From contig CALYOH010000007.1 in assembly GCA_945228905.1 (NCBI GenBank), forward strand, positions 1 through 32,651: a stretch of DNA of 32,651 nucleotides. Reading direction: 5' to 3'. The stretch is from an uncultured Caryophanales bacterium. GTDB lineage: Bacteria > Bacillota_I > Bacilli_A > RF39 > UBA660. Shown here piece after piece: positions 28,104 to 32,651 of the stretch. Position 1 is the stretch's first letter; each line of letters starts with the position of its first letter. The notes below the pieces were generated by a model that was given only the letters and a program-made list of their open reading frames with translations, ran no database searches and had not been told where the DNA came from. Made by a program: the position numbers and the translations under genes.

Positions 28104-30716
28104 CTATTTTGCTTCGTACCAGTTAGTTCCTGTTTCTATTTCTACTTTTAATGGTACTTGTAATTTATATGTATTTTCCATTATATCTCTTACTAATTTC
28201 TTTACTTCTTCTAATTCATCATTATGAACATTTAATATTAATTCATCGTGTACTTGTAGAAGAATCTTCGTTTTTAATTTTCTTTTTAATAATTCTTCAT
28301 ATAGTTCTACCATTGCTTTTTTAAGTATATCAGCAGCGGTTCCTTGGATTGGAGTATTTAGAGCCATTCTTTCTCCACTACTTCTAATCATATAGTTCTT
28401 AGACATTAATTCTGGTATTACTCTTCTTCTATTCATTAGAGTTGTTACATAACCATTAGAATATGCTTCTTTCTTTTCATTTTCCATATATTCTCCAATT
28501 CCTGGAAAAGCATCTAAATATTTATCTATAAAGTCTTTTGCTTCTGCAACATTTATACCTAAATCTTCTGATAATCCAAAACTACTTATTCCATAAATTA
28601 TACCAAAGTTTACTGCTTTAGCAGTTCTTCTCATAGTTTTATCTACTTGATCTATTGGTACATGATAAATATCACTCGCTGTCTTACTATGAATATCTAA
28701 ATCATTTTTTAAAGCTTCTATCATTTGAGTGGCTTTTGCCTGTGATGAGAATACTCTTAATTCTACTTGTGAATAGTCACTTGATAATAATACTGAATCT
28801 TCATCTGGAATAAATGCTTTTCTAATCATTCTACTATATTCATCTCTTGCTGGTATATTCTGAAGATTTGGACTAATACTTGATAATCTACCTGTACGTG
28901 TAAGTGTTTGTGTATAAGTAGTATGAATTCTACCATCTTCTCTTATTTCGTTTATTAAACCCACTGCATAATTTGAATATAATTTAGATAACATTCTATA
29001 TTCTAATATTTTATCTACTATAGGATTAACAAAACTAATTTTATCTAAAATATCTTTATTAGTTGAATATTTACCATTAGTTACTTTCTTTGGATATGGT
29101 ATTTGCATATCTACAAATAGAACTTGTGATAATTGAGCTGGACTATTAATATTAAATTCTTTATTTGCTAAAGAATATATTTCTTTTTCTAGATTTTTAA
29201 TTTTAATATCTAATTCATCTCTTACTTCTTCTAAGTATTTTTTATCTACTTTAATACCAGTTAATTCCATATCAGCAAGTGCATATACTAGTTTCATTTC
29301 TATATTATTAAATAATTCTTCTTCATTATACTCTTTTATCTTATTTAATAATTCTTCTTTTGAATCATAAATAAATTTTGCTTTTGAAATAGTTACATTG
29401 TGTAATTTATCATCATCTACTAGCATTGGTCTTTTAATTGTACCAAATACATCTTCAAATTTAGGTATATCATAACCCATAGTATTTGCTAAAAAGCTTA
29501 TATCATCTTTAATTTCATAATCTGATAAGTATGCTGCTAAAGATGTATCGTAATTACAATTATTTATTTTAATATTATATCTATCTAATAAAACTATACA
29601 TTTCTTTAAATCATAAGTATATTTATTACTATTAGTTGTAAATAAATCTTTATATTTAGATATTTCTTCTTCCTTTAAGAAATATCCTGCTTCTCCATCA
29701 TAGAAACTTATTCCTAAGATATCACTCTTACTATATACTTCTCCCATGCTTTCTATATAGAATGAGAAGTCTTTATTATAATCAAAGTCTTTAATATCTT
29801 TTATTATTAATTCATCATTTTTCTTTACTTCATTATTATCTTCTACTTCTCCTATAAGATTATATTTTTTTAATAATGAATGGAATTCTAATTCTTCTAA
29901 TATTTCTTTTAACTTTAAATTATTAATTCCAGTATATTTACAATCTTCTAATGTAAAGTCTAAATTAACATCTTTTACAATAGTTGCGAGATTATAAGAC
30001 TTATAGCAATTATCTTTATCTTGAATTAATTTATCTTTAATCTTACCTTTAATACTATCAATATTACTATATAGATTATCTATTGAACCATATTCTTTTA
30101 TTAGTTTAATAGCAGTCTTTTCTCCTATTCCTTGAACTCCTGGAATATTATCTGATGGATCTCCCATAAGGGCTTTTAAATCTATCATTCTTATTGGTTC
30201 TACTTCATATGTTTCTATAAATTTATTTCTATCCATCATTATATGATCATTACTTTTTAATACTCTTACTATTACATCATCTTCAATTAATTGTAGTAAG
30301 TCTTTATCACTACTTATTATTTCACAATCAAAATCTGAATCTATATGTGCTTGATATGATAATGTTCCTATAATATCATCTGCTTCATAATAATCCATTT
30401 CATGATATTTAATACCCATTGCATTTAATACTTCTTTTGCTACCGGAAATTGTTTTTTTAAATCATCAGGTGTATCACTTCTACCAGCTTTATATTCATC
30501 ATATGCTTCATGTCTAAACGTTTTTCCTTTATCAAAAGCAACTAATATGTATTCTGGTTTATCTTCTCTTATGATTCTATTCATCATATTAATAAATCCA
30601 TATAATGCATTAGTTGGGAATCCTTTAGAATTACGCATAATTACTCCACTATAAGCAGTTGCGTAATAACTTCTAAATACTAAGTTATTTCCATCTACAA
30701 GTAATATTTTTTTCAT
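28104..30716 (-). CDS. polA: DNA polymerase I
   Basis: 5'-nuclease domain, polymerase A motifs DYSQVELRV, RRTAKAVNFGIIYG, LLQVHDELI. Confidence 0.98.
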   Translation of the reverse strand: MKKILLVDGNNLVFRSYYATAYSGVIMRNSKGFPTNALYGFINMMNRIIREDKPEYILVAFDKGKTFRHEAYDEYKAGRSDTPDDLKKQFPVAKEVLNAMGIKYHEMDYYEADDIIGTLSYQAHIDSDFDCEIISSDKDLLQLIEDDVIVRVLKSNDHIMMDRNKFIETYEVEPIRMIDLKALMGDPSDNIPGVQGIGEKTAIKLIKEYGSIDNLYSNIDSIKGKIKDKLIQDKDNCYKSYNLATIVKDVNLDFTLEDCKYTGINNLKLKEILEELEFHSLLKKYNLIGEVEDNNEVKKNDELIIKDIKDFDYNKDFSFYIESMGEVYSKSDILGISFYDGEAGYFLKEEEISKYKDLFTTNSNKYTYDLKKCIVLLDRYNIKINNCNYDTSLAAYLSDYEIKDDISFLANTMGYDIPKFEDVFGTIKRPMLVDDDKLHNVTISKAKFIYDSKEELLNKIKEYNEEELFNNIEMKLVYALADMELTGIKVDKKYLEEVRDELDIKIKNLEKEIYSLANKEFNINSPAQLSQVLFVDMQIPYPKKVTNGKYSTNKDILDKISFVNPIVDKILEYRMLSKLYSNYAVGLINEIREDGRIHTTYTQTLTRTGRLSSISPNLQNIPARDEYSRMIRKAFIPDEDSVLLSSDYSQVELRVFSSQAKATQMIEALKNDLDIHSKTASDIYHVPIDQVDKTMRRTAKAVNFGIIYGISSFGLSEDLGINVAEAKDFIDKYLDAFPGIGEYMENEKKEAYSNGYVTTLMNRRRVIPELMSKNYMIRSSGERMALNTPIQGTAADILKKAMVELYEELLKRKLKTKILLQVHDELILNVHNDELEEVKKLVRDIMENTYKLQVPLKVEIETGTNWYEAK

Positions 30717-30746
30717 AATTAATCACCATTTCTAGTATAACAAAAA

Positions 30747-30772
30747 AAATAATAATTTTGAAATTATTATTT
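30747..30772 (-). terminator. Rho-independent terminator downstream of the small SOS ORF and its hairpin region
   Basis: Minus strand AAATAATAATTT-CA-AAATTATTATTT followed by TTTTT. Confidence 0.7.
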
Positions 30773-30777
30773 CTTTT

Positions 30778-30830
30778 TAGTTACTTTTAGTAAATACGAA
30801 AGAAGAGTAAAGAAAACCTAAAAGTAACTA
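30778..30830 (-). ncRNA. Structured 3' region or putative sRNA: 13-bp stem with a 27-nt loop carrying an anti-Shine-Dalgarno segment
   Basis: TAGTTACTTTTAG (30778-30790) / CTAAAAGTAACTA (30818-30830); loop contains 30793-30807, complementary to the RBS at 31033-31047. Confidence 0.55.
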
Positions 30831-30876
30831 TGTTCCTCCTCCACCAGATGTAAACATCTGGATTTTTACAGGTTAA

Positions 30877-31026
30877 TTATTTACTTAATTTAATAGCGAT
30901 ACTTGTTTGTTCTTCGACAGAATTTTTTTCTAATTGTTCGAATCTACAACTTACAAAAAATAAGTATAGTAAGAAAATTAAGTAAATCCCCACAATAATT
31001 AAACCTGTTTTAATACGTTCTGACAT
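30877..31026 (-). CDS. 49-aa single-TM small protein, candidate SOS-induced membrane peptide / division inhibitor (missing from ORF track)
   Basis: MSERIKTGLIIVGIYLIFLLYLFFVSCRFEQLEKNSVEEQTSIAIKLSK*; RBS AAAGGAGAG; consensus promoter with LexA box; divergent from lexA. Confidence 0.8.
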   Translation of the reverse strand: MSERIKTGLIIVGIYLIFLLYLFFVSCRFEQLEKNSVEEQTSIAIKLSK

Positions 31027-31055
31027 AAAATTCTCTCCTTTCGTATTACACCTTT

Positions 31056-31084
31056 ATTATATATCGAACATTCTTTCGGGTCAA
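31056..31084 (-). promoter_or_regulatory. Promoter of the small ORF with LexA operator in the spacer
   Basis: TTGACC (31079-31084), 17-bp spacer, TATAAT (31056-31061); CGAACATTCTTTCG (31065-31078) is one mismatch from CGAAC-N4-GTTCG. Confidence 0.85.
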
Positions 31085-31092
31085 TAGTAATT

Positions 31093-31106
31093 AAAACATT
31101 TGTTTG
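31093..31106 (+). promoter_or_regulatory. Second putative LexA operator, overlapping the lexA -35 box
   Basis: AAAACATTTGTTTG with AAAC-N4-GTTT dyad; lexA promoter TTGACA (31104-31109), 17 bp, TAAACT (31127-31132). Confidence 0.65.
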
Positions 31107-31154: not shown

Positions 31155-31775
31155 ATGGAGAAGTTAACTGGAAAACAAAAGATTATATTAGATATACTTA
31201 AAAGATTAATCGCTAAAAATGGTTATCCACCTACGGTTAGAGAGATTGGTAAAGAAGCTAATTTATCATCTCCGGCAACAATACATTTCCATTTAAAGAA
31301 ATTAGAGGAAAAAGGATATATTAAACAAGATCCTAAAAAGAATAGAACAATTGAAATATTAGTTCCAAATGAATATTTAGAAACTCAAGATGATAAAGTT
31401 GTAGAAGTTCCTTTACTTGGAAAAGTTACTGCAGGTACTCCTATTGAGGCTATTGAGATGCCTGATGAGTTTTTCTCTTTACCTACAAATTTAATAACAA
31501 CAAAGAATGATATATTTTCTTTAACTGTATCAGGTGAATCTATGATTAATGTTGGTATCTATGATGGAGATATATTAATTGTTGAAAGAAGAGATACTGC
31601 TAGAAACGGTGAGACTGTTGTTGCTATGAACGATAATAATGAAGCAACTGTTAAAACATTTTATAAAGAAGATGGATATTTTAGACTACAACCTGAAAAT
31701 GATACTATGGAACCTATTATATTAAAAGAGTGTACAATCTTAGGTAAAGTAATTGGTTTATATAGAAAATTATAA
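31155..31775 (+). CDS. lexA: SOS repressor LexA
   Basis: LTGKQKIILDILKRLIAKNGYPPTVREIG wHTH; cleavage-site AG (KVTAGTPIEA); catalytic SGESM and Lys in EATVKTF. Confidence 0.98.
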   Translation: MEKLTGKQKIILDILKRLIAKNGYPPTVREIGKEANLSSPATIHFHLKKLEEKGYIKQDPKKNRTIEILVPNEYLETQDDKVVEVPLLGKVTAGTPIEAIEMPDEFFSLPTNLITTKNDIFSLTVSGESMINVGIYDGDILIVERRDTARNGETVVAMNDNNEATVKTFYKEDGYFRLQPENDTMEPIILKECTILGKVIGLYRKL

Positions 31776-32604: not shown

Positions 32605-32651
32605 CTGTCTCTTATACACATCTCCGAGCCCACGAGACCTCTCTACATCTC
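32605..32651 (+). other. Residual Illumina Nextera i7-side adapter (CTGTCTCTTATACACATCT CCGAGCCCACGAGAC + index CTCTCTAC + ATCTC)
   Basis: Exact match to the Nextera read-2 adapter in reverse orientation, followed by an 8-nt index and the start of the P7 tail. Confidence 0.98.

Follow-up and report, generated by a model that had tools for sequence, protein, structure and literature searches.

A 3' UTR element complementary to the ribosome-binding site of a putative SOS small membrane protein gene probably represses its own mRNA by cis fold-back in uncultured Bacilli

The window analysed here is the whole 32,651-nt contig C7, which belongs to a 1.56-Mb genome in 153 contigs (completeness 93.6%, contamination 8.6%) of an uncultured Caryophanales bacterium. 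The closest relative among the genomes compared is UBA3789, with a LexA identity of 97%, and bin contamination is no explanation of the locus, since the UBA3789 assembly carries the same one. The records of the relatives are labelled Bacilli, Bacillales, Erysipelotrichaceae, Tenericutes or Mollicutes, and many come from rumen or gut samples. The minus strand shows, in this order, a promoter with a LexA box, an ORF encoding a 49-aa protein, a 3' element, a terminator and a polA-like gene, and lexA is divergent (Table 1). The last bases of the contig are sequencing adapter and not genome, since positions 32605-32651 read as a Nextera/Tn5 transposase adapter plus index (CTGTCTCTTATACACATCTCCGAGCCCACGAGAC...).

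Table 1. Features of the lexA, small ORF and polA locus, in window coordinates.
Feature	Position	Strand	Basis
lexA	31155..31775	+	NCBIfam TIGR00498, E=1.4e-64, residues 1-206
Sigma-A-type promoter of the small ORF, TTGACC-17-TATAAT	31056..31084	-	11/12 consensus matches; kept in the seven element species
Putative LexA box CGAAAGAATGTTCG, between -35 and -10	31065..31078	-	Sequence
RBS segment AATACGAAAGGAGAG, target of the anti-SD	31033..31047	-	Sequence, folding, covariation, UTR constraint
ORF of the 49-aa single-TM protein	30877..31026	-	SosA/YneA-like position and layout
Hairpin 1 CCAGATGTTTACATCTGG	30844..30861	-	One compensatory pair
Nearly invariant stretch GGTGGAGGAG(G)	30835..30845	-	Can pair weakly with the anti-SD loop
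Hairpin 2, 13-bp stem 30778-30790/30818-30830, 27-nt loop 30791-30817	30778..30830	-	Three compensatory pairs
Anti-SD CTCTTCTTTCGTATT	30793..30807	-	Sequence, duplex energy, covariation
Intrinsic terminator of the small-ORF mRNA, AT-rich hairpin and U-run	about 30744..30776	-	One compensatory pair
polA-like DNA polymerase I gene, next downstream	28104..30716	-	ORF; name from sequence alone; start MKKILLVDGNNL kept beside lexA in relatives

Transcription of the small ORF is predicted to start near position 31050, and the putative LexA box reads CGAACNNNNATTCG in five of the six other element-bearing species. Comparable small TM ORFs were picked at 79 of the 92 distinct lexA loci by a script which preferred a start codon with a Shine-Dalgarno (SD) sequence plus a hydrophobic stretch. 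Across relatives, the small protein has a positive N-terminus (median charge +2) and a short tail after one hydrophobic segment, which is present in 80 of 80 proteins, as judged by hydropathy only. The dN/dS of the small ORF is about 0.2-0.4. Pfam and NCBIfam searches, LysM included, gave nothing near the cut-off. By analogy with SosA of S. aureus and YneA of B. subtilis, the small protein is probably an SOS-induced division inhibitor of this kind: the gene is adjacent to lexA (divergent in sosA) and putatively under LexA control, and the protein has a single N-terminal TM segment and, as SosA, a short outside tail without LysM (PMC6851548). It differs from them in length (42-58 aa across relatives versus 77) and in showing no detectable homology to a named family, and the text consulted on SosA and YneA describes no 3' UTR control. 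SOS division inhibitors of the SosA/YneA type have little sequence in common even with one another (PMC6851548). The link is one of resemblance, not of membership.

The original prediction had described a pairing between the RBS and a downstream loop, a stem closing that loop and a terminator 3' of the element, and the three were recovered. The RBS and the loop form 15 contiguous pairs (14 Watson-Crick and one G-U) and the 13-pair stem encloses the anti-SD, both with exact coordinates, and the AT-rich hairpin with its U-run follows (Table 1). Run length alone is weak evidence, because this T-rich DNA gives such runs by chance: a run of at least 14 pairs, with G-U allowed, was reached in 77 of 2000 Markov shuffles. 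The energy of the RBS/anti-SD duplex is -21.5 kcal/mol, which was reached by none of 1000 shuffles (best -19.7), and 73 loci without the element show a mean of -8.5 and a best value of -16.4 kcal/mol. The complementarity between RBS and loop is not due to chance, which is decided by its conservation with compensatory change in seven species. In its own genome, the exact RBS/loop pattern is found at the loop and at the small-ORF RBS and nowhere else. The Rfam search of the window gave nothing at the gathering threshold. Two further candidates in this region were rejected: a G-quadruplex in GGTGGAGGAGG, whose fourth GG is missing in three of the seven species, and a leader ORF behind the GGAGGAG stretch, whose start codons vary among element species.

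Among 39 genomes of the genus, a hairpin-1 pattern and a covariance model each give exactly seven strong matches, never more than one in a genome, and flanking sequence places all seven elements between the small ORF and polA. A search with the RNA model across 389 genomes of the family, a set which included just a few members of the genus, gives a strong score for the window alone; family matches at E 0.009-0.1 and one genus member (G007) at E=0.001 were counted as noise. As judged from sequence comparison, the gene pair came first and the element is a lineage-specific addition, since the small TM ORF at lexA is far wider spread than the element. At loci without the element and with a recognised polA start, polA lies mostly within about 15-65 nt of the small ORF. 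Two loci, L029 and L032, branch near the element species with weak tree support and have neither small ORF nor element; the same weak support does not settle one versus two origins of the element. Where relatives lack the element, the small ORF leads directly into the polA promoter and no terminator is evident between them (30717-30876 compared), so SOS transcription could reach polA. The element would uncouple SOS transcription of the small ORF from polA.

The pairing between RBS and anti-SD, of 15-16 contiguous pairs, is kept in all seven element species. Two species have AAUACG in the RBS and five have AAUAUG, and the loop reads CGUAUU or CAUAUA/CAUAGA to match, which is a compensatory change from C-G to U-A between RBS (ACG/AUG) and loop (CGU/CAU). 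The same five species carry two more nucleotides on each side, AG after GAGAG in the RBS and CU (or UU) in the loop, and since these insertions match, the pairing extends rather than slips. Standard pairs occupy 95% of the cells on the named pairing versus 44-57% when it is slid by one to three columns, a count which includes hairpin 2. The covariation set contains seven sequences, all from one genus, and in the core of the long helix it shows a single clear compensatory substitution, on one branch (two species versus five), most pairs being invariant; compensatory pairs in the other parts are listed in Table 1. G-U pairs are found at G13-U40 in the seven species and, in two of them, at G17-U36 and as one U-G of hairpin 2. 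On the plus strand these positions would read as A-C mismatches, so the pairs favour the minus-strand RNA as the selected molecule.

Within the loop, 11 of the 15 anti-SD positions are invariant versus 2 of the 10 other positions. The 13 nt before the SD core show a mean pairwise identity of 0.96 in element species versus 0.58 in 22 genus members without the element. At a LexA identity of 82-90%, the identity of the same 13 nt is 1.0 (6 pairs with the element) versus 0.57-0.60 (191 pairs without it), where pairs across the two RBS types lie outside the matched LexA bins and show a single difference. The upstream 5' UTR is thus constrained solely where a pairing partner exists. Independent drift of loop and RBS, for which the relatives were checked, was not seen, and compensatory change was found. 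The sequestration in cis between 5' and 3' UTR put forward in the original prediction is well supported, as changes in RBS and loop go together and constraint on the 5' UTR is found only along with the element.

The predicted MFE structure of the mRNA contains the 5'-3' helix in the seven species, with transcript ends also predicted, and the full mRNA of the window has a folding z of -5.7, which is partly owed to the terminator. The predicted probability of an unpaired SD is 0.3-0.99 for prefixes ending before the anti-SD and at most 0.02 after it. Forcing the anti-SD to be single-stranded, with hairpin 2 allowed, carries a penalty of 6.2-13.7 kcal/mol. The 5'-3' helix and hairpin 2 compete by energy, and RNAfold, whose scope does not extend to a pseudoknotted alternative, opens the hairpin for the long helix. 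The anti-SD, expected in the original prediction to be accessible in the loop, lies wholly within it, but the hairpin opens in the predicted fold, and a full 15-bp duplex within a closed 27-nt loop is sterically doubtful. A first contact through the loop and then the opening of hairpin 2 is the likely path to the long helix. Tried against the RBSs of the larger ORFs of the window (20 candidates), the anti-SD scores -20.6 with its own RBS and -14.3 with the next best, that of lexA. A general anti-SD for many genes was rejected, its own RBS being by far the best target among window RBSs.

From the computed complementarity, covariation, constraint and folding, we infer that the 3' UTR anti-SD probably represses translation of its own mRNA by cis fold-back, giving a self-limiting SosA-like SOS transcript. 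The LexA-repressed mRNA, of about 310 nt, would encode the small single-TM protein and carry a 3' UTR of roughly 120 nt, ending in the hairpin, the loop of which can pair with most of the 24-nt 5' UTR, and then in the terminator. During transcription the SD would be accessible, at least in part, and protein could be made in a burst. Once the 3' hairpin is transcribed, its loop would nucleate on the SD, the hairpin would open and a helix of 15-18 bp would close the mRNA. Binding of the 30S subunit to the closed mRNA would be blocked, and the helix may be open to RNase III. Each small-ORF transcript would therefore be self-limiting. A broader and rather doubtful extension is that this lineage-specific RNA module, placed behind an SOS division-inhibitor gene, silences each finished transcript, confines synthesis of the protein to the time of transcription and so serves as an SOS checkpoint timer, possibly reset by a convergent antisense RNA.

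The arrangement of hairpin, loop and terminator also resembles an sRNA, and the 3' UTR might be released or transcribed as one, acting in trans on the small-ORF RBS or on others such as that of lexA. In three species, pairing of the loop with the RBS of lexA reaches -14.3 and -13.3 kcal/mol, but in the remaining four just -5.5 to -8.5 kcal/mol, and lexA was rejected as a trans target because the pairing is not conserved across the seven. A conserved minus-strand promoter before the element was looked for and none was found: there is no good one before hairpin 1, and the nearest candidate, with 9/12 matches, is inside the element. The 3' end of the upstream ORF also varies among species. The independent or processed sRNA of the original prediction gained no positive evidence, and we consider it unlikely. 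Nor did the type-I-toxin-like layer proposed with it find any, the small protein occupying the position of a division inhibitor of the SosA/YneA type.

Type I control could take another form here, a convergent toxin-antitoxin pair whose plus-strand RNA would terminate at hairpin 1, antisense to the 3' UTR of the mRNA; overlap at the 3' ends is found in Bacillus systems, yonT/SR6 among them (PMC5848175). Hairpin 1 and the downstream T-run (30844-30868, plus strand) form an intrinsic terminator kept in the seven species, which is read from the conserved A-run that precedes hairpin 1 on the minus strand. However, no conserved plus-strand promoter is found (the best candidates have 8-9/12 matches and lie partly within polA codons), a plus-strand RNA would hold a copy of the RBS and not its complement, and the G-U pairs point to the minus strand. 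Such a pair is as improbable as the sRNA, and a convergent antisense RNA is possible either as a rival or as an added layer to cis control. Still less probable, in our judgement, is that the element is a mere terminator region shielding polA from SOS read-through, with incidental complementarity: this agrees with the direct passage from ORF into polA promoter in relatives without the element, but a second hairpin with an anti-SD loop and the covariation with the 5' UTR would be superfluous for a terminator. As an observation apart, the plus-strand terminator at hairpin 1 is preceded by CTCCTCCACC and may be the end of an unannotated convergent RNA.

IstR of E. coli is a separate sRNA, whereas the anti-SD of the fold-back proposed here lies within the same transcript as its target. 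TisB/IstR resembles this locus in having an SOS-induced small membrane protein under post-transcriptional control by RNA (PMC8145889). In S. aureus, translation of icaR is blocked when an anti-SD in the 3' UTR of its mRNA binds the SD of that message, as the 3' UTR segment could do here, and a compensatory mutation restored the interaction; that case involves a 7-nt UCCCCUG motif and a biofilm repressor gene (PMC3868564), whereas here 15-16 pairs in a covarying hairpin loop face a membrane protein gene with a putative LexA box. The full-length hok and AapA3 toxin mRNAs likewise encode small membrane proteins, and in their folded form a distal anti-SD of the same molecule masks the SD; they differ in their antisense antitoxin RNA, 3' truncation and toxicity (PMC6733600), and control at the present locus would run through a LexA box. 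In the open-access papers searched, no description was found of 5'-3' UTR anti-SD pairing on SOS checkpoint genes or on a lexA-divergent SOS gene, but the principle of 3' anti-SD pairing is already known from icaR and hok/AapA3, and this case differs in having a LexA-box gene, in the length of the pairing and its covariation, and in presenting the anti-SD in a hairpin. Covariation-backed pairing of this type is seldom documented in bacterial mRNAs, and this case would put an RNA layer on top of LexA control in uncultured gut Bacilli/Mycoplasmatota. In so compact an mRNA, fold-back repression is testable with two or three mutations, and the sister species without the module are a natural control.

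Immediately before the -35 of lexA, at about 31093-31104, there is a palindrome, AAACATTTGTTT, which is kept in most relatives inspected and present in altered form in L029 and L032, where the small ORF and the LexA box are lost. It is a possible lexA auto-operator.
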